From assembly GCA_002731275.1 (NCBI GenBank), contig PCBK01000094.1, forward strand, positions 1-64,000: a stretch of 64,000 nucleotides of DNA, written 5' to 3'. Under the pieces are notes generated by a model. The model had not been told where the DNA came from, ran no database searches, and worked only from the letters and a program-made list of their open reading frames with translations. This stretch comes from Deltaproteobacteria bacterium (lineage in GTDB: Bacteria > Myxococcota_C > UBA6777). The position numbers and the translations under genes were made by a program. Shown here one piece after another: positions 1 through 11,976 of the stretch; positions within the stretch are counted from its first letter, which is position 1, and the number at the start of each line of letters is the position of its first letter.

Positions 1-170
1 CGCAGTTGAGCAGGGGGAGCTGCCGACCGCAAGGGAGGCTGAGGGGGTCCTGTTCTCTCCCTTACATCGCTCCCCTTGTCGACCGAAGCAAAGCGCAGGG
101 GGAGCTGGACGAGCGATAGCTCGGACTGAGGGGGTCTTGTTGCATCGCTCCCCTTGTCGACCAAAGCAAA
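1..170. repeat. Two-copy ~90-bp repeat at window edge
   Basis: Two partly degenerate copies of a unit containing CAGGGGGAGCTG, then a CTGAGGGGGTC segment, then CGCTCCCCTTGTCGACC. The first lies at about 11-100 and the second at about 97-170. The AGGGGGAG and CTCCCCTT parts are near-complementary, so a hairpin is possible. No gene with a ribosome-binding site is visible. The stretch runs directly into a palindromic element (179-251) and the hairpin array (285-800). Confidence 0.55.
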
Positions 171-178
171 ACACGACA

Positions 179-251
179 GCTACGCCGAAGGCGTCAACAG
201 GAGGGGAAAGCAAGCGGAGCGCGCTTGGGGATGCCCATGTATCCCCGATAG
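179..251 (+). repeat. Palindromic element B, copy 1
   Basis: This element has a conserved left part (CGCCGAAGGCGTCAACAGG, then GGGGAAAGCAAG), the bases GCGCTT, a G/C-rich hairpin and a conserved GATAG end. The hairpin here is GGGGAT...ATCCCC. Related copies occur at 10188-10265 (inverted), 10581-10646 and, split by a group II intron, at 12164-12205 and 14134-14164. The hairpin arms differ between copies but remain paired. Confidence 0.75.
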
Positions 252-284
252 ATATGCCAAGCGGAGCGCGGCAGTCAGTAAGGG

Positions 285-800
285 CAAGTGGCAACTTGCC
301 CGACAAAACGGCAGTCAGTAAGTGGCAACTTGCCCGACAAAACGCCAGTCAGTAAGTGGCAACTTGCCCGACAAAACGCCAGTCAGTAAAGTGGCAACTT
401 GCCCGACAAAACGCCAGTCAGTAAAGTGGCAACTTGCCCGACAAAACGTCAGTCAGCAAGTGGAAACTTGCCCGACAAAACGCCAGTCAGTAAGTGGCAA
501 CTTGCCCGACAAAACGCCAGTCAGTAAGTGGCAACTTGCCCGACAAAACGCCAGTCAGTAAGGGCAAGTGGAAACTTGCCCGACAAAGCGGCAGTCAGTA
601 AGTGGCAACTTGCCCGACAAAACGCCAGTCAGTAAGGGCAAGTGGCAACTTGCCCGACAAAACGGCAGTCAGTAAGGGTAAGTGGCAACTTGCCCGACAA
701 AACGGCAGTCAGTAAGGGTAAGTGGCAACTTGCCCGACAAAACGTCAGTCAGTAAGGGCAAGTGGCAACTTGCCTGACAAAGCGTCAGTCAGGGGCAAGA
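285..800 (+). repeat. Tandem array of 14 hairpin repeats (element A)
   Basis: Fourteen consecutive units of about 33-40 bp, each containing a core like AAGTGGCAACTTGCCCGACAA followed by ACGCCAGTCAGT. Full units contain GGGCAAGTGGCAACTTGCCC, a perfect 8-bp stem with a GGCA loop; shorter units have lost the 5' GGGC of the stem. There are no unique spacers, so it is not a CRISPR array. It lies directly downstream of the lipoprotein gene that ends at 813. Two further copies are at 14191-14237 and an isolated inverted copy is at 58018-58037. Confidence 0.9.
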
Positions 801-1679: not shown

Positions 1680-1891
1680 CACAATCTTCTCCTTACTATT
1701 GATATTCCGGACAGCTCCACAAAGTGTATCACAACATAGCTCTTATAGAGACGTGTGTCACGATGTATCGTTACACTTTGTATGGAAGATGATGGTCACA
1801 AAGAGCACAAAAGAGCGTTGATGTACATGGGTATCTGGTATATTCTGTGTCCGTCCACAAAGAAGAAGAGCTCACACAAAGGGATGTCACG

Positions 1892-3388
1892 ATGTCAGAA
1901 CTCTACGCATTCTCCGTCACCTCAGTCCAAGACAAGGTCATCGAAGTAGATGCCTTTCAGGTCCATCCAGATGCCGGTGGTTTTGCGCCCACCAAGAATT
2001 TCGCGCTACAGATCCTCTACACCCCAATCCACGACTGGACAGACGTGTGCAAAGATGGACAAGGCGGACCACTCGACAACGACTTCTCACAGGACGACTT
2101 TTACAAAGACGATTACATTCGGCTGGTCTGTCACGACTACATCGAGAAGGTCGAGATCACCAACCGCGAAGGCGACAGCGCACACTACATCATCACACTC
2201 ACAGATCCCATGTGGGGACAACACCTCGCGCCGGGGATGAGTTGGGATTCAGCTTGCTACAACAGAGGACGTGACCTACCCCGCCCCAAAAAAAAGAAGA
2301 AAGAAGTCTTTGGACCACGTAAACGCATCGTCCGTTGGCCCGAAAAAGGCCTCCGCAACATCGACGAAGACGTCTTCGAGAATGCCACAAACCTCAAGCT
2401 CCTCGATCTGTCCAAAAACCACCTACAAGCACTCCCCCACTCCTTCGGGAATATGAGCAAACTCGAAGAGCTCAACTTACGTGACAATGTACTTCGTACC
2501 CTCCCAGAGTCATTTGGCGACCTACAGGCCCTCAAAAGACTCGAATTACGTGGCAACCAATTCGAATCCCTCCCAGACTCCTTTGGCCAACTCACAGCGC
2601 TCGAAGAACTCTACCTCGCCGAATATGACCCCCTTCCAGAACAACTCCCCGAATCCTTCTCGGCGCTCACAAACCTCCGCATCCTCACAATGCGCGGAAG
2701 TGGACTCAATCGCCTCCCCAAAGCATTCAGACGCCTACAAGCGCTGGAGATCCTCCATACCCGACTTGAATACGAATATGGCCTTGAGGGCTTCTACGAG
2801 ATCTGTCACATCCCAAGCCTCCGCATCCTTGAGATCGGAAATGCTACAACCATCCCCAGAGAGATCGGTCACCTCATCAACCTCGAAACGCTTATCCTGT
2901 CGAGCTCCTCACTCAAAAAACTCCCGGAGACCTTTGGTAAGCTCACAAAACTCAAAGAACTCGACCTTTACAACAATCAACTGAGACAATTCCACGAATG
3001 TCTGCGACCACTCGCCCCCAACCTTCAAAAGCTCAACCTGAATAGCAATGAGATCCCTTCGCTCCCCGAGTGGATCGGCGAATACACACAGCTCAAAGAG
3101 TTCCTGTTTGAACGCAACCACATCACCAGCATCCCCGAGAGCATCGGTCAACTCACTCAACTCGAACGACTCAATCTCTCCTGCTCTCCCATTACAGACA
3201 TCCCCGAAAGTATCGGACAGCTCACACAGCTCAAAGAACTCAATCTCAATCAATGCCAGATCACCCGGCTACCAGAGAGTATCAAGCAACTCACCCAACT
3301 CGAACGACTCCATCTTTATGACAACCCGTTGACAAGCGACATTCAATCTTTTCGGGACGCGCTCCCCAACACAAACATCTGGCTGTAA
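1892..3388 (+). CDS. Leucine-rich repeat protein
   Basis: A 498-aa protein. About 150 N-terminal residues have no recognised domain and contain a basic KKKKKE stretch near residue 150. About fourteen LRRs of roughly 23 residues follow, of the bacterial/plant type with the consensus LxxLPESFGQLTxLxxLxL. No signal peptide is seen, so it is probably cytoplasmic and used for protein binding. The ATG at 1892 has AAAGGGA upstream; an upstream in-frame start at 1847 lacks such a site. The gene is followed 12 bp later by the ankyrin/pentapeptide gene, whose ribosome-binding site overlaps this stop, so the two are probably co-transcribed. The partner protein is unknown. Confidence 0.85.
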   Translation: MSELYAFSVTSVQDKVIEVDAFQVHPDAGGFAPTKNFALQILYTPIHDWTDVCKDGQGGPLDNDFSQDDFYKDDYIRLVCHDYIEKVEITNREGDSAHYIITLTDPMWGQHLAPGMSWDSACYNRGRDLPRPKKKKKEVFGPRKRIVRWPEKGLRNIDEDVFENATNLKLLDLSKNHLQALPHSFGNMSKLEELNLRDNVLRTLPESFGDLQALKRLELRGNQFESLPDSFGQLTALEELYLAEYDPLPEQLPESFSALTNLRILTMRGSGLNRLPKAFRRLQALEILHTRLEYEYGLEGFYEICHIPSLRILEIGNATTIPREIGHLINLETLILSSSSLKKLPETFGKLTKLKELDLYNNQLRQFHECLRPLAPNLQKLNLNSNEIPSLPEWIGEYTQLKEFLFERNHITSIPESIGQLTQLERLNLSCSPITDIPESIGQLTQLKELNLNQCQITRLPESIKQLTQLERLHLYDNPLTSDIQSFRDALPNTNIWL

Positions 3389-3400
3389 AGGATATCACCC

Positions 3401-4954
3401 ATGAATCTATATCTAGAAGACAGTTGGGAGCGCAAACAGACACTCCTGCAAGCCATCCAATCAAATGACCTCGCGCACATCAAAGAAGTGGTGGAGCAAG
3501 CGCCTGCATTCATCGACGCTCGCTATATCAAGGGTGACACCCCCCTGCTCATGGCTTGCGAAACAGGTAACGAAGCGCTCGTCCATTATCTCGTCGAAGC
3601 AGGCGCCGATCTCGAAGCCGAGAACAATTATCACCGCACACCACTGCTCATGGCCATCGAACACAAACACACAGACATCGCGCTGTATCTCATCGAACAA
3701 GGTGCCAACGTCCATCACACAGAGACCAACGACATCTCCCCTCTCTTCGAGGTGTTTAGCAAGTTCTCCGAAGACGAAGTGCGTTTTACCTTGGCAGAAG
3801 CACTGCTCGCACATGGCGCTGACATCGATGTCGACACACGTTACAACATTACGGTCCTCTGTGACGCATGCAATTACTCCCCAAACGCAGACACTGTACG
3901 TTTCGCGCTCTCAAAGGGCGCCGACACATCCATGCCCAACAGCGACGGGCTGACACCACTGATGCAAGCCGCGAAATACGGGAATCTCGTCGAGATGGCG
4001 TTGTTGTTAGATGCAGGCGCAGACACAGAGCAGCGTTCAAGGACGCCCACGAAGCCAGGTTGGTCGACATCACGAAGTGACCAGGGGATGACCGCGTTGA
4101 TGTGGGCCGCCAAAGAGAAACAAGACTGGACTGCGTATATGCTCCTTCGGCGTGGTGCCAATCCCAACACACAAGTCCGTCATGATTGCGAACAGGTCGA
4201 GCTTGCGAATAAGGATATCTTGGGACAAACAGCCCTTCATTTTGCTATCAAAGCAGACGCCAAGAAGATCGTCCAATCACTACTCGATGCAGGTGCAGAT
4301 GTGGATATCGCCGATGACAATGGCATCACACCCAAGCAATTGCTCGCAGACCATCCGACCACACAAACAGAAGAAGCAACGATTGATCAAGCCTTTTCAT
4401 GGCAAATGGCCCGTGACAATGCACCTCCCACAGAGGAAGAGTGGGCAGCGCTTGTCGAGAATCACAAGATCTTCCTCGCACAAAAAGAACCCTACGGATA
4501 CTGGAGTACACTCGAAGTCTCTGGTTTACCCCTCGCGGTATTTAACAACAGTCAAACCCCACAAGAGATAAGAGAGAAACAAGCGACCTTGCGCTTTGGC
4601 AATCTGAGCAGCGGGTTCCCCAAAGAGGTTGACTGGACATACGCCAACATGGTGGGATTGTGGGCCGAAGGTGTCGACTTTCAGGGCGCTATGTTGCAAA
4701 AGGGGAAGTTTGTCGATTCATACTTCAGAGAGGCGAACTTTGAAGGCGCTGACCTCACACAAGCCGATCTTTCTCGTTCGGATATGAGAGGCGCCAACCT
4801 CAAAAACGCGATCCTCAAACGCACAGACTTTGAAAACTGTGACCTAACAGGAGCTGACTTTACAGGGGCCGTTTTGGACGGCATCAAGCTCAAAGGCGCG
4901 ACTCTCGATCAGACCAAAGGACTCTTCGAGGCGCTCGGCATTCCATCAAATTGA
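3401..4954 (+). CDS. Ankyrin-repeat and pentapeptide-repeat fusion protein
   Basis: A 517-aa protein with no signal peptide. Residues of about 20-330 form roughly eight ankyrin repeats (GDTPLLMACETGNEALVHYL and similar). About 90 residues without a recognised domain follow. Residues of about 425-500 are pentapeptide repeats (ANFEGADLTQADLSRSDMRG), which fold as a right-handed beta helix. Both modules bind proteins, and pentapeptide proteins can also mimic DNA. The AAAGGA ribosome-binding site overlaps the preceding LRR stop codon, so the LRR and ankyrin proteins are probably made together and may work together. No enzyme domain is seen. Confidence 0.85.
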   Translation: MNLYLEDSWERKQTLLQAIQSNDLAHIKEVVEQAPAFIDARYIKGDTPLLMACETGNEALVHYLVEAGADLEAENNYHRTPLLMAIEHKHTDIALYLIEQGANVHHTETNDISPLFEVFSKFSEDEVRFTLAEALLAHGADIDVDTRYNITVLCDACNYSPNADTVRFALSKGADTSMPNSDGLTPLMQAAKYGNLVEMALLLDAGADTEQRSRTPTKPGWSTSRSDQGMTALMWAAKEKQDWTAYMLLRRGANPNTQVRHDCEQVELANKDILGQTALHFAIKADAKKIVQSLLDAGADVDIADDNGITPKQLLADHPTTQTEEATIDQAFSWQMARDNAPPTEEEWAALVENHKIFLAQKEPYGYWSTLEVSGLPLAVFNNSQTPQEIREKQATLRFGNLSSGFPKEVDWTYANMVGLWAEGVDFQGAMLQKGKFVDSYFREANFEGADLTQADLSRSDMRGANLKNAILKRTDFENCDLTGADFTGAVLDGIKLKGATLDQTKGLFEALGIPSN

Positions 4955-5032
4955 AGTGGGAAAAGATGTAGGAAACGGGTGTGAAGAGAGAGGATGATGA
5001 GAGGGATATTTTGGTGGGGGGAGGTGCAGTGA

Positions 5033-5401
5033 TTAGAAGCAGAATTTCTTCCATTTGAGTTTGCAGGTCAAGGGTTTGATGACCTTGATGGTGCCTCTTT
5101 TTGCACACATATCAGCAGCGTATTTTGTGCAGATCCTGAGGTGTCTTGTGCAGGACTTGCTCGCCTTGATGCAGTATTTTTTCCCAAGGATCTTTTTCTT
5201 CTTGGTGCATTTGAGTGAGTACTTTGTGCAGACTCGTGTGTGTTTTTTGCACTTGGCGCCAGGGCGGAATTTTGTGCAAGATTTCTTCGTTTCGGTTTTG
5301 CAAGAGATCTTCGGTTTGACTTTGAGACAGACTTTGGCCTCTGCTTGTGTGGTGAATCCAAATCCGACGATCGCGATGAGGGCAAACAAGATTTTCTTCA
5401 T
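5033..5401 (-). CDS. Small secreted cysteine/lysine-rich protein
   Basis: A 122-aa protein with a standard signal peptide (MKKILFALIAIVGFGF, cleavage after AEA). The mature part is very basic and carries about fifteen cysteines spaced in CTK, CAK and CKK motifs, suggesting a disulfide-stabilised or metal-binding secreted protein. The ATG at 5401 has GGAGA nine bases upstream; longer in-frame extensions lack a site. I do not recognise the family. Two other short, basic, secreted proteins occur in the window (18246-18665 and 58101-58679), similar in size and charge but without an obvious shared motif. Confidence 0.7.
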   Translation of the reverse strand: MKKILFALIAIVGFGFTTQAEAKVCLKVKPKISCKTETKKSCTKFRPGAKCKKHTRVCTKYSLKCTKKKKILGKKYCIKASKSCTRHLRICTKYAADMCAKRGTIKVIKPLTCKLKWKKFCF

Positions 5402-5808
5402 AACTGTTTCTCCTTGACTCGTGATGCTCGATGAGCACCGTTGAAATGAATGATGGTTATCTCTTTCGCCCAAAGCCTCCTGGCCTTTTTGGCGTCTTGC
5501 CCTACCCATAATGCAAATGACAGACCAGCCCAAACAAACAATTCAAGATCAAATAAATCATACACATACAAAAAGTCTCTCTCATTCGTTCTCAACGATC
5601 CTTGAAAACTTTCATCAAAACATCTCAACGATCCTTGAATGCTGAGGCGATTGTGGGGGTTTTTGTATGGACTTTCCTGTACATTCGTCTATCTTGTGGC
5701 GAACAGGCCTTGAAACATGTAAGCTCGTTGCCTATGATCTTGCTATCAATGTTCGTCTCCTACAGAGGCCCGCGTTATGGGGACGACCCAACACAAAGGA
5801 ATGTACCG
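5402..5808. other. Divergent intergenic region, 407 bp
   Basis: Non-coding stretch between the small secreted protein (minus strand) and lolA (plus strand). It should hold both promoters. The only feature I can support is a pair of 17-bp direct repeats at 5590-5606 and 5623-5639 (separate entry). Short open frames here lack ribosome-binding sites. Confidence 0.5.
5590..5639. promoter_or_regulatory. Pair of 17-bp direct repeats upstream of lolA
   Basis: TCTCAACGATCCTTGAA occurs identically at 5590-5606 and 5623-5639, 33 bp apart, or about three helical turns. Same-face spacing in a divergent promoter region is typical of a regulator binding site. No regulator is identified. Confidence 0.4.
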
Positions 5809-6546
5809 ATGCGCTCATCACAATCGACGAGACACCATCTACTTCATATACTTACACGTTCACTCTGTGCTCTCGCGCTCCTCTTGTCCTTTGGGGTCGC
5901 GACACAAGATGCGCAGGCCGCCAACAAGCTCACCCTCGACAAAGTCATCGACGGCATCCAGGCCTTTTACAAGAACACACAAGATCTGCGCACAGACTTT
6001 CGTCAGATCTTCTCTCCTGCGCGTTTCAGCCGCAAACAAAAGGAGAAGGGTCGTTTCTTTTACCGCAAACCATCGATGATGCGCTTTCAGTACACAGCGC
6101 CAGAGCGCAAGGACTTCATTTATAATGGTAGCACCTTGTGGATGTACTATCCCGACGACGCAGAGGTCAAAATCAAGAAGGGAATCAAGCGCTCTGAGTT
6201 GGGCGTGGCCTTTCAATTCTTGTGGGGCAGTGGCAATCTCAAGAAGTCCTTCAAGGTCAAGCGTCTGCCCTCCTGTCGTTTTTCCCTTGGCAAGCGTAAA
6301 TTCAACTACAAGCAAGCCGGTCAGGTGTGTCTGCGTTTGATCCCAAGAAAACCACAGTCGATGTTCAAGACGTTGTACTTTGGTGTCTCCAAAAAGGACT
6401 TCCGCGTTCAGCAGATCCTGTATGTCGACAACGCCAGGAACTGCAATCACTTTATCCTCGGCCAAATCAAGACCAACAAAAAGCTCCCCGCGCGGATCTT
6501 CAAGTTCGACATCCCTAAAGGCACCGAAGTCATCAAACTCCCCTAA
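5809..6546 (+). CDS. lolA: Outer-membrane lipoprotein carrier LolA
   Basis: Periplasmic chaperone that takes lipoproteins from the inner-membrane LolCDE complex to the outer membrane. The protein is 245 aa, with a signal peptide ending in AQA at about residue 40. The mature part has family hallmarks: TDFRQIF near the start, GRFFYRKPSMMRFQY, and the DGxxLW-type segment YNGSTLWMYYPDD. Two cysteines, in SCRF and VCLR, are unusual for LolA. The ATG at 5809 has AAAGGA eight bases upstream; a longer in-frame extension to 5602 has none. The thioredoxin-like lipoprotein gene follows and a terminator sits at 7241, so the two probably form one unit. Confidence 0.8.
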   Translation: MRSSQSTRHHLLHILTRSLCALALLLSFGVATQDAQAANKLTLDKVIDGIQAFYKNTQDLRTDFRQIFSPARFSRKQKEKGRFFYRKPSMMRFQYTAPERKDFIYNGSTLWMYYPDDAEVKIKKGIKRSELGVAFQFLWGSGNLKKSFKVKRLPSCRFSLGKRKFNYKQAGQVCLRLIPRKPQSMFKTLYFGVSKKDFRVQQILYVDNARNCNHFILGQIKTNKKLPARIFKFDIPKGTEVIKLP

Positions 6547-6624
6547 GCGCAGCAAGACAGCAGCTTCATTTGACATCATTCGCGCCGGGTTGGTTCGCCC
6601 TCCCCCACATGAAAGGTCCTTTTG

Positions 6625-7191
6625 ATGAACAGTTCACTCACGCTCTGTAGACAATGGTTGTTGGGTTGTGTCGCTTTGATGACGTTGGGATTGATGGGTT
6701 GTCCAAAGCAGGTGAAGGTCGGCGCACAAGACGCCAAGACCCCGCTGTATCAAATGACCCTTCAAGACTTGAATGGGAAAGATTTTCCACTACGAGAATT
6801 ACAGGGCAAGGTCACGATTATCGACTTCTTTGCGAGCCACTGTAACGACTGTTTGCAGATCATCCCACAGCTTCAGAGGTTGCACAACACATACAAGGAC
6901 AAGGACTTCAATGTTTTGGGGATCGCTCTGGAGAAGAAGGGTCTACCGCTCACGACGTTCATCGAGTTCTTTGCCAAGAAGGCGCCTTTGGAGTATCCGA
7001 TCGTGTTGGCGAACAAGGCGCTGTATCAAGGCAAGACGGAGCTGGGTCGGATCATCCGCGTCCCCCAGTATAAGGTGCTCGACAAGTGCGGGAGTGTACG
7101 TCACACCCACATGAAGATCTTGCCCTTCAAGACGTTGGAAATGGAAGTCAAAAAGCTGCTCGCCGAACAAAAAACCTGCCCAACTCCGTAA
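6625..7191 (+). CDS. TlpA/ResA-like thioredoxin lipoprotein
   Basis: A 188-aa lipoprotein (lipobox LGLMGC, Cys26) with a thioredoxin-like redoxin domain. The active-site motif is HCNDC (Cys73 and Cys76) in [16 protein letters not shown], the usual position for TlpA/ResA proteins. These act on thiols in the periplasm, for example in cytochrome c maturation or disulfide reduction. The specific partner is not known here. GAAAGG lies eight bases before the ATG at 6625; the TTG one codon upstream is less likely. It follows lolA by 78 bp, and an intrinsic terminator follows at 7241-7270. Confidence 0.8.
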
Positions 7192-7240
7192 TCTTACGAC
7201 AACACATCCACACAAAAGAGAGAAAAGACTATCGAAGGAG

Positions 7241-7270
7241 GTCTTCACGGGGTATGATGAAGACTTTTTT
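7241..7270 (+). terminator. Intrinsic terminator between the thioredoxin gene and queC
   Basis: Perfect 7-bp stem GTCTTCA/TGAAGAC with a 10-nt loop, followed by six T. It lies 50 bp after the thioredoxin gene stop and about 80 bp before queC. An upstream AAGAC at about 7226-7230 could pair with GTCTT at 7241-7245 and compete with the terminator stem, so attenuation of queC is possible but not shown. Confidence 0.6.
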
Positions 7271-7351
7271 GACGCGTCGAAGTATCGTGCGCGGGACTGG
7301 AGAGCTGCTGGTCCAATCAAAGAAAGTCCTCATGTGAACGGAGAAAAGAGC

Positions 7352-9400
7352 ATGTCAGAGAGCCGAAAAGCGGTTGTATTGTTGAGTGGTGGTTTGGATT
7401 CGACGACCTGTTTGGCGATGGCCAAGGACCAGGGTTTTGAAGTCTACGCGTTGAGCTTTCAGTACGGTCAACGTCACTCCCATGAGCTTGACTGTGCCAA
7501 ACGTATCGCGCAAGAGATGGGCGTCAAGAAACACCACATCGCCCAAATCCATCTCGACGCATTTGGAGGTTCGGCGCTCACAGACAGCAGCATCGAAGTC
7601 CCCAAAGAACGACCTCTTGAGGACATGGAGAAAGAGATCCCGGTCACGTATGTCCCCGCACGAAACACCATCTTCCTCTCCTTTGCACTCGCGTGGGCTG
7701 AAGTACTTGAGGCTTCTGACATCTTCATAGGTGTAAATGCCCTCGACTACAGCGTTGGTGGGGATTCGTTTGTCTTTATCAAGGATGAACATGACGAACT
7801 CCACCATGTGCCAATACGAGAATTCGTAGAGGACTTTCCACGCGGACGTTACAAAACACTCTCGATCAACCGCAAAACTTGGCAGCCGGAGTGGAAGAAA
7901 GTCAAAGCGAAACTTCGACATCGTGTAGGTGAGAAGAGGTGCTACCGAGTCCACCTGGAACGTGGTGACTCGATCGAGATTACAGAAGACCACTCTCTCT
8001 TTACGATCGATGAACGTTACCAGCTCACTCCAATCAAGGGAGAGGATATCGACCCGGGTATACCTTTAATTGTCCCCATGACGCTTGAAGAAGCACACCC
8101 CGAAAAAGATCTTGAATACCTGGATCTGAGAGGGCTCGTAGGCTTCGTGAATGCTCCTCTCACCAAAACCATGGCACGCGAAGAAGATGGGTTTGTTTAC
8201 CACCGAAGCCTCGCGCTTCCTTTGCAATTCCCTATCACAGACGACTTCCTCTACGCGACAGGTTTGTGGCTCGCAGAAGGCCACATAACGAAAAGCGGAC
8301 AACCACACTTCTCCAACACCCTCCCCGAAGCACGTGAAAGAGTCCGAAGAGCTTTTGCTCCGTACGATGGAACCATCAAAGTAAAAGAGAATGGTGTAGA
8401 CTATTTAGTCCAAGGTGGGAAACTGCTAGGTTCTTTGTTGCTCTTTATAGGTTTTACAGGCAAAGCGATTGATGGAGATAAACAACTCCCTCGCTGGTTT
8501 TGGCAACTCTCCAGACAACAAAAAGAGACCTTCCTTGCGGGGTTTTGGGATGGGGATGGAAGTCGTGTCCACAACGGTACAGCAACCTGCGCCCAAAAAT
8601 CGTCGGACTTGCTACACGAACTTGTATATGCCTTCCGTTCTTTGGGAGCATACCCCACATACAAACCAATGAAACGCCAAAGCGGACATGTTATGAGAAT
8701 GTGTTCAGCCAGCGACTTCAAGATCCTCGCAGAGCTTCCCCTCAACGACATAGCCAAAAAAGAAACGGCTGAAAAAGCAGCACAAGTCAAGAGCCGTGAC
8801 AAAGCAAAAGGACTGTGGAAGTCAGAAGCCTTGTGGAAACTCATTCAAGAGGCGGAGAAGCCTGCAGGCCTTGCAACAGAACTTTACAATAGGCTCGGGA
8901 AATACGACAATTCCGTAAGAGGCCAAAGGTGGCATAAATTGCGAGACATCGAACTTGGTTATCTGATGGATACTCCACTCGGTTTTCAGATGGTGACAGC
9001 CATTGAGGAGATCCAAGAAGAATACATGTACGATCTATCCGTACAAGGAAACGAAAACTTTTATGCCAATGGCATCCTTGCTCACAACAGCGGATACCCT
9101 GACTGTAGACCCGAATACATCGAGGCTTATGAAAAGATGGCCAACTTGGCGACCAAGAACGCGACCCAAGATGGATTGACGTTGCGCATTCACACGCCGT
9201 TGATTCAGATGACGAAGGGTGAGATTGTCAAGACAGGATTGGCGTTAGGTGTTGATTACAGCATCACGAGTACATGTTACGACCCAGATGAAGATGGCCG
9301 CGCTTGTGGTGAGTGTGATGCATGTCTTCTGCGTATCAAAGGGTTCCGCGAGAATGAGCAGGACGATCCAGCTCCGTACCAAAAGAAGACACAAGGGTAA
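7352..9400 (+). CDS. queC: 7-cyano-7-deazaguanine synthase QueC, interrupted by an intein
   Basis: Converts 7-carboxy-7-deazaguanine to preQ0 using ATP and ammonia, a step toward queuosine. The N-extein carries the PP-loop [10 protein letters not shown]. The C-extein starts at GYPDCRPEY and ends with the zinc-binding cysteines of [21 protein letters not shown] 446-residue intein (7751-9088) splits the conserved block ALDYSGYPDCR. After splicing, the protein would be 133 + 103 = 236 aa, normal for QueC. GGAGA lies seven bases before the ATG at 7352; the GTG at 7334 is unlikely. queE follows 8 bp downstream, so the two are one operon. queD and queF are not in the window. Confidence 0.93.
7751..9088 (+). 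mobile_element. Intein with LAGLIDADG (DOD) homing endonuclease in QueC
   Basis: In-frame 446-residue insertion. Block A is SVGGDSFVF with Ser rather than Cys as residue 1. Block B contains the TxxH motif ITEDHSLF. Two endonuclease motifs are [12 protein letters not shown] (intein residue about 167) and [11 protein letters not shown] (about 261). The C-terminal splicing block has YMYDLSV, then NGILAHN, with penultimate His and terminal Asn. The first C-extein residue is Ser (9089-9091), supplying the +1 nucleophile. All residues needed for protein splicing are present, and both endonuclease motifs retain an acidic residue, so it looks active. The insertion point lies inside a highly conserved QueC substrate-binding motif. 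Confidence 0.93.
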
Positions 9401-9408
9401 TCGATCAG

Positions 9409-10053
9409 ATGGCGTACACAGTCAAAGAGCTCTTTTACACACTCCAGGGAGAAGGCGCACAAGCAGGCAGAGCCGCAGTCTTTTGTCGGTTCGCAGGTTG
9501 TAATCTCTGGACAGGTCGCGAAGAAGACAGACACAAGGCAGTCTGTACATTTTGTGATACGGACTTTATTGGGACAGATGGACCGGGAGGTGGCAAATTT
9601 AAGGACGCAGCTGCGCTGGCAGATGCGATCGCCGCGTGCTGGCCTGGACCTCGCGAAGGACTCCCACTCGCTCCCTATGTCGTCTGTACAGGCGGTGAAC
9701 CACTGCTTCAGGTGGATGAAGCGTTGATCGACGCTCTTCATGCACGTCACTTCGAGATCGCCGTTGAGACCAACGGTACACAACAAGCCCCTTCGGGACT
9801 CGATTGGATCTGTGTCAGCCCCAAATCCAACGCTGAGGTCATCCTCACAACAGGCCATGAGCTGAAACTCGTCTACCCTCAAACAGATGCTCCCCCCGAA
9901 CAATTCGTGGACATGGACTTCCAACACTTCTTCATACAGCCCATGGATGGTCCCCACGTCAACGAATACACACAACAAGCCATTCAATACTGTATGGCCC
10001 ACCCCCAATGGCGTCTCAGCCTCCAAACACACAAAATCACTGGTATCCCATAA
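9409..10053 (+). CDS. queE: 7-carboxy-7-deazaguanine synthase QueE
   Basis: Radical SAM enzyme that turns 6-carboxy-tetrahydropterin into 7-carboxy-7-deazaguanine, the substrate for QueC. The protein is 214 aa. The iron-sulfur motif is the CX14CX2C form (Cys31, Cys46, Cys49) found in a subset of QueE proteins, not the classical CX3CX2C. Other hallmarks are YTLQGEGAQAG at the N terminus, the SAM-binding CTGGEPLLQ, and AVETNGT. The ATG lies 8 bp after the queC stop. The protein ends just before a repeat-filled intergenic region. Confidence 0.93.
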   Translation: MAYTVKELFYTLQGEGAQAGRAAVFCRFAGCNLWTGREEDRHKAVCTFCDTDFIGTDGPGGGKFKDAAALADAIAACWPGPREGLPLAPYVVCTGGEPLLQVDEALIDALHARHFEIAVETNGTQQAPSGLDWICVSPKSNAEVILTTGHELKLVYPQTDAPPEQFVDMDFQHFFIQPMDGPHVNEYTQQAIQYCMAHPQWRLSLQTHKITGIP

Positions 10054-10076
10054 CAGACTTACGGTTGGGCAAGCTG

Positions 10077-10187
10077 CGACCGCCCTTACTGCCGCGCTTC
10101 GCTTGCCCTTGCTGCCGCGCTTCGCTTGCCCTTGCGACTGCCGCGCTTCGCTTGCCCTTGCGACTGCCGCGCTTCGCTTGCCCTTGG
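10077..10187 (-). repeat. 26-bp tandem repeat array, about four units
   Basis: On the plus strand the unit is CTGCCGCGCTTCGCTTGCCC followed by TTGCGA, repeated about four times with small deletions. Read on the minus strand it directly follows the GATAG end of the inverted B element. It resembles the short link between element B and element A at 252-290, so it is probably a differently expanded form of the same module. Confidence 0.75.
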
Positions 10188-10265
10188 CTATCGGGGACCG
10201 GAGGCGGTCCCCAAGCGCGGCTTATCAGCCTTGCTTTCCCCTCCCGTTGACACCTTCGGCGTGGC
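10188..10265 (-). repeat. Palindromic element B, copy 2 (inverted)
   Basis: Minus-strand copy of element B. Its hairpin, GGGGACCG...CGGTCCCC, has an 8-bp stem and differs from copy 1 while remaining fully paired. The flanks (GCGCTT side and GATAG side, plus GGGGAAAGCAAG) match the other copies. It shares about 28 identical bases (AAGCAAGGCTGATAAGCCGC and onward) with copy 3 in the opposite orientation. Confidence 0.75.
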
Positions 10266-10580
10266 TGCCACGCTTTGCTTGCCGGGCTGCAATGCGTCAG
10301 CTCTCGCTTGCGCGAGTGCTGCGCGTTTTGTGCTTGACCGTCGCAAGGCGACGCTCTCGCGGTGCGCCTCGTGATGTCCATCACGAAGGAGGCGTTAGAG
10401 GGAAATGATTGGGATGTGAACACACTCGCACAAAGTGCGAGCTATACCTTTGGTTTTACGGAAAGGACAGGTTACACAGTTATCCTCGGCTATCGCCTCG
10501 GGCTTGAAGAAGCAATACCGACCACTGCGTGTAAAGAAGAATTTGGAGTGTCCCTGAAGCACTAGAAACAGGAGCGAAGC

Positions 10581-10646
10581 GACTCAACAGAGGGGGAAAG
10601 CAAGGCTGATAAGCCGCGCTTGGGGGGCATTCATGTCCCCCGATAG
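10581..10646 (+). repeat. Palindromic element B, copy 3
   Basis: Plus-strand copy with the hairpin GGGGGGCAT-TC-ATGTCCCCC, nine base pairs including one G-T pair. The conserved GGGGAAAGCAAG and GATAG flanks are present. Together with copy 2 it forms a 460-bp inverted pair. Confidence 0.75.
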
Positions 10647-10728
10647 CAAAAGTCTGCCTCTACTCATCCTCCTCTCCGAAAAACACACCTCATCGTACAT
10701 AGATGCAAACCATCAGACCATAAAAGAC

Positions 10729-11976
10729 TTATGGTTGAGGTTTGTGAAGCTGTCCCATAAACAAGATCGTATTTGAACGGACGTGGCGAATCATCAACAA
10801 GAAGGGTCGATTAAATGTCACGACAGTCGGGAGACTGGCAGCTGACTTTGTCATCACGACTGCGGTTGCGGCGGCTGCTTCGCTTCCCTCTTCGTTGACT
10901 TCGAGGAATGCCTTGTGAACGACAGCGGAGATATAAAGCTGTTTGGCGTCCTTTTTGTTGATCCCACCAAAGTCTGCCTGCCCCGCCTTGAAGGCAATGG
11001 ACATTCCCATATCGGACAACACTTTCCCCATCGAAAATGCCGACGTCATCTTGAAGCGTGGCAACGAGAGCTGCACTTTGGTCTTGTACATCTTTTGTTC
11101 CCATGCGGCGAGCTGTTTAGCGTGTAGGAGCTTGCTCGCGTCCGCCAACTTCACACCTTTTTTGGGCAAAAACAAGAGCATATCGAAGGCTTTCCCCTTG
11201 TAAGGCAAAGACACCAATCGATGACCATCAATATCGGCGGTGCGGAACTTACGATTCGCAAACATCATGGGAACATTTTGCTTCTCGCCATTCTCCATCG
11301 TAAAGGGTTTGGTCGACGTATTGCTCTTGTCGAACTTATTCTCCCAATTCCCTTTGAAGTAGATAGCGTTGGTCAGCACGAGCTTGGTCGCATTTTGGAG
11401 GACGTTGGGTTTCAACAACTCTTTGATCTTGTTTTGTGTTTGTGATTCGACCCAGGCATTGATGGTATGTCGCGCGGATTCAGCTTGTTTGGCAAAGTCG
11501 AGGAGCCGCAGAGGTGCGTTGTAAAACTTGGTCATCTTGCTCTGGAAAGATGTTTCGATAGTGTACCCCTTTTGGGCCCAAAGTCGGTTGGCGACATCCA
11601 AACGGATAGCGCTGCCTTTGTTATGTCGAAGATATTCTCTCATCGAATGAATCGATGCGTTGTAATCTTTATCTTTTGCCACCTGTCGGAGCACTTTCTT
11701 CATGGCCTCCGCAGTCTCTCCTCGTGCACCAGCGGCCGTCATACTCAACGCAACGGACAAACTGTATGGAGAAAAAAAGACATTCTTTGGCGCGTTGTTG
11801 AGCTGCTGAAAGAGCGCGAGACCAAACTCATTGTTGCTATCAGAGGCGGGTTTGACGGGATATTTCGGCACAAACGGAGCATTCTTGACACATCCGACGA
11901 GCGCAAAACTCATACACCCAATCAAAAACAGACAAAACGCGAAGGACTTGGTAAACGAACGAACACTTGGTTCCAT
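10729..11976 (-). CDS. Lipoprotein serpin (serine protease inhibitor)
   Basis: A 415-aa serpin with a lipoprotein signal (lipobox LVGC, about Cys29), so it is probably anchored in the envelope. The serpin fold is clear: SPYSLSVALSMTAAGARGET near residue 70, VLTNAIYFKGNWENKF near 200, and FNRPFLLMIRH with GQLHKP at the end. The reactive-loop hinge, EEGSEAAAATAVV, has the small residues typical of inhibitory serpins, so it should trap a protease. Counting from the hinge, P1 falls near Ser-Ala in MTKSAAS, with Lys and Met close by, so target specificity is uncertain. GGAG lies upstream of the ATG at 11976. The likely role is protection against exogenous or own extracellular proteases. Confidence 0.93.
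   Translation of the reverse strand: MEPSVRSFTKSFAFCLFLIGCMSFALVGCVKNAPFVPKYPVKPASDSNNEFGLALFQQLNNAPKNVFFSPYSLSVALSMTAAGARGETAEAMKKVLRQVAKDKDYNASIHSMREYLRHNKGSAIRLDVANRLWAQKGYTIETSFQSKMTKFYNAPLRLLDFAKQAESARHTINAWVESQTQNKIKELLKPNVLQNATKLVLTNAIYFKGNWENKFDKSNTSTKPFTMENGEKQNVPMMFANRKFRTADIDGHRLVSLPYKGKAFDMLLFLPKKGVKLADASKLLHAKQLAAWEQKMYKTKVQLSLPRFKMTSAFSMGKVLSDMGMSIAFKAGQADFGGINKKDAKQLYISAVVHKAFLEVNEEGSEAAAATAVVMTKSAASLPTVVTFNRPFLLMIRHVRSNTILFMGQLHKPQP

Follow-up and report, generated by a model that had tools for sequence, protein, structure and literature searches.

The QueC protein encoded in the 64,000-nucleotide stretch of DNA analysed here (the window) carries what its sequence identifies, far beyond chance, as an in-frame Ser1 LAGLIDADG intein. 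Very probably, this element (termed W) is an ordinary class 1 intein whose homing endonuclease is likely to be active. Inteins at exactly the same bond of QueC were found in four other contigs (L016, L019, L020 and L043). Inteins of this kind are well known; the host and the site appear to be new. QueC had been flagged beforehand as an unfamiliar intein host, and text searches agree: no QueC intein was found in the portions of the open-licence literature that they covered, a survey of mycobacteriophage inteins contains no QueC term (PMC5050341), and the word ‘intein’ is absent from the main text of a QueC-family study published in 2026 (PMC13329287). The preliminary description had also proposed a search for further inteins at this position. 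In the literature searched the site kept its novelty; with four further contigs, W is not singular.

Anatomy of the intein

The forward-strand frame at 7334-9400 is open over 688 codons in the order QueC, insert, QueC (Table 1). The insert had been placed at 7751-9088, and a codon-by-codon reading of Ser1, Asn and Ser+1 finds these limits exact to the base, with the terminal Asn codon at 9086-9088 and the Ser+1 codon at 9089-9091. The serine at residue 1 and the His-Asn end followed by Ser can likewise be read directly in the sequence. Pfam matches on the insert alone are Intein_splicing (3.4e-21), LAGLIDADG_3 (2.6e-9) and Hom_end (4.5e-6), and the NCBIfam models intein_Nterm (5.9e-8) and intein_Cterm (1.9e-6) both score above cut-off. 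In bits, the class 1 intein profiles all pass: PF14890 (76.1 versus 35.8), TIGR01445 (33.6 versus 24.5) and TIGR01443 (27.9 versus 15.6). A sequence search of the PDB returned the homing-endonuclease intein PI-PkoII as top match (9.4e-15).

Table 1. Coordinates of the features discussed (window positions unless a contig is named)
Feature	Position	Strand	Evidence
queC N-extein, last residues ...NALDY; GTG 7334 also possible as start	7352..7750	+	Pfam QueC on 12-141 of 7334 frame; GGAG before ATG 7352; B. subtilis QueC 3bl5 4.3e-23
Putative intein W in QueC, 446 aa, Ser1 to His445-Asn446	7751..9088	+	Family profiles; junctions read in sequence
Ser1 codon, block A nucleophile	7751..7753	+	Sequence; TIGR01445 intein_Nterm
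Block B TEDH (TxxH), residues 78-81	7982..7993	+	Sequence; H81 kept in L016 and L081
LAGLIDADG motif 1, residues 168-177	8252..8281	+	Sequence; G171-G177 invariant with L016
LAGLIDADG motif 2, residues 261-270	8531..8560	+	Pfam LAGLIDADG_3 on 259-328
C-terminal block NGILAHN, residues 440-446	9068..9088	+	TIGR01443 intein_Cterm
queC C-extein, Ser+1 SGYPDCR... to stop	9089..9400	+	Open frame, sequence, Pfam
queE, separate gene 8 bp downstream of queC stop	9409..10053	+	TIGR04508 5.1e-107
DpdA, 887 aa, weak DUF6884 match on N-terminal side (locus L061)	contig C36, 12036-14696	-

All four splicing blocks (A, B, F, G) are present. The nucleophile positions 1 and +1 are both serine, block B reads TEDH, the block F aspartate is D428 (in YDLSV), and the C-terminal pair is His445-Asn446. 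The exteins join as ALDY|SGYPDCR, and the spliced form aligns with intein-free QueC across the junction. Class 3 inteins have no nucleophile at position 1 and carry a cysteine in block F; Ser1, and D428 at the block F position, rule out that class here. The whole intein contains three cysteines.

Both endonuclease motifs had been described as intact, and they are: LAEG (174-177) and DGDG (267-270) mark a two-motif LAGLIDADG homing endonuclease (PF14528, 37.6 bits versus 22.5), whose acidic residues, E176 of GLWLAEG and D269 of GFWDGDG, are both retained and presumably catalytic. From these two motifs we infer endonuclease activity, and ‘active-looking’ is a fair label for the element as judged from its sequence. 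An AlphaFold2 model of the intein alone was poor (mean pLDDT 40.3).

Host gene and insertion site

The precursor matches Pfam QueC at 3.4e-77, split over two stretches, and the host profile TIGR00364 at 206 bits versus 150.3. ATG 7352, preceded by GGAG, is the likelier start. The canonical motifs SGGxDS, YxQxHxxE, VPxRN and YPDC are all kept in the host, and its zinc motif, C(x)9CxxCxxC, is one residue longer than the C(x)8CxxCxxC listed in the QueC motif set of PMC13329287. In an AlphaFold2 model of the whole precursor, of modest confidence (mean pLDDT 57.8), the two extein halves jointly superpose on B. subtilis QueC (VIA-align against 3bl5_A: Z 21.7, rmsd 2.5, 183 aligned, model 10..677), and a Foldseek search with the same model matched endonuclease-bearing inteins (2cw7, E 4.6e-13).

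The insertion point lies between Tyr(-1) and Ser and precedes the essential Tyr of YPDC by two residues. In the same block, the Y131A variant of E. coli QueC is inactive (PMC13329287); unspliced QueC should therefore be inactive. That the insert sits in one of the most conserved QueC blocks was also borne out, as SGYPDCR is the best-conserved 7-residue window across 19 QueC rows (four from spliced exteins, the other 15 from intein-free genes, for which 16 loci had been tried and L028 dropped out), although its conservation is inflated by the G[YF]PD[CT] motif with which the rows were pre-filtered.

Genome context

The assembly comprises 10.75 Mb in 200 contigs and is 94.65% complete, with 5.5% contamination. 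It encodes one full QueC; the other PF06508 match is weak and partial (E 1.9e-4, in a 629-codon frame). QueC catalyses the last step, so preQ0 output would hinge on splicing. The short queC-queE spacing reported earlier is confirmed. A further claim, that splicing would gate the whole preQ0 pathway, is not supported: queE is intact and has its own start and reading frame, so that splicing could gate QueC alone. Promoter and terminator scans gave nothing of use.

Tgt (1.1e-167) and QueA (1.6e-128) are encoded in the same genome, and with a single full QueC, loss of splicing should cost the cell its queuosine. Contig C36 additionally encodes a DpdA (NCBIfam, 429.9 bits versus a cut-off of 200). 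Near it, frames at 6707-7663 (+), 4241-6685 (+) and 1756-4281 (-) encode another TGT-like protein (319 aa) and a pair of Hel308-like DEAD helicases. This is a dpd-like DNA 7-deazaguanine locus, whose composition is possibly unusual. Given Tgt, QueA and this locus, the preQ0 that spliced QueC makes should go into tRNA and probably also into DNA.

Several features of the surroundings are recorded here in their own right. A 26-bp tandem repeat of 3.9 copies lies shortly after queE (10088-10186), and its core has no further copy in the window; a 415-aa frame at 10729-11976 (-) looks serpin-like by eye. Four further inteins occur in the same genome (L002, L003 and L005, on contigs C143, C175 and C48), in hosts that we take by motif to be PhoH-like, DnaB (twice) and GyrB. 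One of the DnaB inteins starts with Ala, and the GyrB intein starts with Ser1.

Inteins at the same site elsewhere

The four inteins at the same bond are of several kinds. L016, in an Omnitrophota MAG (JAPLLV010000031), is 488 aa long, has Ser1, a LAGLIDADG endonuclease and an HN|S end, and lies in a queD-queC-queE operon. L019 and L020, from IMG/VR viral contigs, have 320 and 318 aa, begin with Cys1 and are 61% identical to each other; the copy on the L019 contig has an HNH_3 match below the Pfam cut-off, and L020 shows a similar His-rich region by eye. L043, also from an IMG/VR viral contig, has 374 aa, Cys1, LAGLIDADG-like motifs by eye and a Ser-Gln end. The L019 contig also encodes QueD, a queE-like radical SAM protein and a queuine-transglycosylase-like gene (phrog_887), and the L043 contig a QueD-like PTPS. 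W aligns with L016 over its full length (94.7 bits), with L019 and L020 only across the final 32-39 residues, and with L043 over 34 residues of the endonuclease region. As judged from the differing endonuclease types, the site has been invaded separately at least twice, probably three times. In a tree of nine LAGLIDADG inteins, a split that sets W and L016 apart from the rest appeared in 4% of bootstrap trees, which speaks neither for nor against their common descent. As a separate observation, the N-extein stretch PRLPSDTRGGQGLTTNDQ of the L016 QueC (P0002, residues about 78-105) also occurs elsewhere in the same Omnitrophota genome, in some cases within long frames, and this repeat seems to insert into coding sequence.

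These cases emerged from pattern and alignment searches of several collections. The C-terminal junction pattern matched four stretches in genome_contigs (84,980 species by its description), one real (L016) and three by chance; it requires HN plus G[YF]PDCR and misses Gln-type ends such as that of L043, so the bacterial count is a lower bound. In viral_contigs both stretches matched by the same pattern were real. A viral N-junction pattern gave 10 stretches with three QueC inteins, the eight new loci having been read, and a broader viral C-junction pattern gave four stretches, again with three QueC inteins, L051 being a chance match. The bacterial-type N-junction pattern returned no stretches, back-translated patterns found no close relatives of W in genome_contigs or viral_contigs, and across 386 genomes spread over the domain the junction pattern occurred only in W's own genome. 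Whole L019 and L020 precursors used as queries matched only their own contigs. An alignment-based viral scan yielded 22 loci, for all of which the C-junction was read; none was QueC, and 18 of the C-exteins begin with C-x-E-I-x-L-P or C-E-I-x-L-P variants, presumably ribonucleotide reductase.

QueC is present without an intein in all four other genomes of the phylum that were compared. Among 384 Omnitrophota genomes, 337 matched, and G005 alone did so through the intein among the best matches listed. The single listed Omnitrophota frame of about 480 codons (L038 in G018, 484 codons) proved to be a natural QueC-QueE fusion. Phage records matching L020 and L043 numbered 247 and 237, with none covering 80% of the query among the best 60 of each; seven divergent phage QueC genes that were read had 223-353 aa, none of them intein-sized. 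Matches were found in 238 plasmid records, none covering 80% among the best 20. In 10 of 290 genomes spread over the domain there was a relative at E 1e-9 or better, and those that were read include the Ser1 LAGLIDADG inteins L064 and L066. Separately, a ParC/GyrA-like frame of 1626 codons in the same-family genome G003 (L014/L067) seems to hold two inteins.

Proposed mechanism and alternative explanations

Class 1 splicing chemistry is established, and W would be expected to follow it. After translation, the splicing domain would fold between the two QueC halves, and an N-O shift at the Tyr(-1)-Ser1 bond would generate an ester. Ser+1 would then attack the ester, Asn446 would cyclise with help from His445, and the QueC halves would be joined as ...ALDY-SGYPDCR.... 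The embedded endonuclease may cut intein-free queC at the ALDY|SGYPDC codons, whereupon repair would copy the element in. Such an element could persist because its site codes for residues indispensable to QueC, so that imprecise loss would kill the enzyme. Recurrence at the same bond indicates that the position accepts inteins, and the four intein-free relatives are as consistent with a recent gain in this genome as with a loss in theirs. The anatomy, junctions and motifs of W, its absence from those relatives and the same-site recurrence are direct observations; for W we infer splicing, cleavage and homing, and no regulatory role.

It is possible, though on balance doubtful, that the intein still splices but that its endonuclease is dead, homing being lost and inheritance its only route. 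Its absence from the four relatives and the lack of a close allele in genome_contigs would suit such a remnant, but the endonuclease domain is open over its full length and has lost neither acidic residue. Were splicing dead, QueC would be broken, with preQ0 salvaged or the pathway decaying; this is highly improbable, as neither junction nor any splicing block is damaged, no stop codon breaks the frame and queE downstream is intact. An assembly chimera or contaminant contig is barely credible: the contamination value and the 200 contigs would allow for one, but the junctions are exact and in frame at an intein site, the QueC halves are 66-72% identical to those of the same-family genomes G003 and G004, and inteins occupy the same site in other contigs.

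A regulatory intein, whose slow or conditional splicing would make it a switch controlling the supply of preQ0 to tRNA queuosine and to 7-deazaguanine modification of DNA, is very unlikely. The single full QueC and the presence of Tgt, QueA and the DpdA-containing locus would give such a switch something to control, and mycobacterial DnaB inteins are documented cases of conditional splicing (PMC6195587, PMC7360933). The DnaBi1 switch, as described there, is a disulfide of the catalytic cysteine (PMC6195587), and it is inapplicable as such to an intein with Ser1 and Ser+1 nucleophiles and three cysteines in all. In addition, no Rfam element was found in window positions 5000-11000, and the rare, patchy occurrence suits a selfish element. 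Conditional splicing, which the preliminary description said would control queuosine supply, is unsupported in this analysis.

Significance

W adds QueC, a metabolic enzyme that acts in RNA and DNA modification, to the intein hosts; its insertion site is occupied in five contigs, by at least two types of endonuclease. The viral occurrences offer a concrete path along which such elements might enter bacterial queC. A bolder and distinctly unlikely reading is that inteins have repeatedly settled in the YPDC block of queC, as a site common to phages and bacteria, with 7-deazaguanine-DNA phage clusters as vehicles and W possibly making preQ0 supply, and with it tRNA queuosine and DNA marking by DpdA, depend on splicing conditions. 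It draws on the unrelated LAGLIDADG and HNH-like types at the same codons and on a Ser1 relative in a phage transglycosylase-like gene. Since a northern assay for Q34 in E. coli with queC deleted has been published (PMC13329287), precursor splicing and any conditional control could be measured in vivo.

Comparison with known systems

Among structurally characterized inteins, PI-PkoII (PDB 2cw7) and PI-PfuI (1dq3) resemble W in the block order A, B, F, G, the two-motif LAGLIDADG endonuclease and the His-Asn end; W differs in its QueC host and in pairing Ser1 with Ser+1, and the sequence similarity is only weak. L016 shares the insertion point, Ser1, LAGLIDADG and HN|S, but it is longer and 24% identical to W. 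L019, L020 and L043 share the insertion point and differ by Cys1 and by another endonuclease or C-terminus. The inteins at L064 and L066, in hosts that by motif we take to be NDP-sugar epimerases, and the GyrB intein of the same genome are like W in Ser1, LAGLIDADG and a similar block F, yet hosts and sites differ and the matches are partial.

Among the inteins compared, the second-best match to W after L016 (75.9 bits, full length) is that of phage MT835482 (L081:1501-2772), the one phage record matched by W. It shares Ser1, an SVGxDSxVxxKD start and LAGLIDADG, and differs in host protein, site and Thr+1. The N-terminal part of its host matches phage queuine tRNA-ribosyltransferases (phrog_887), which also belong to the 7-deazaguanine pathway. 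As one case rather than a pattern, this second 7-deazaguanine host hints that phage modification clusters may serve as vehicles for such inteins.
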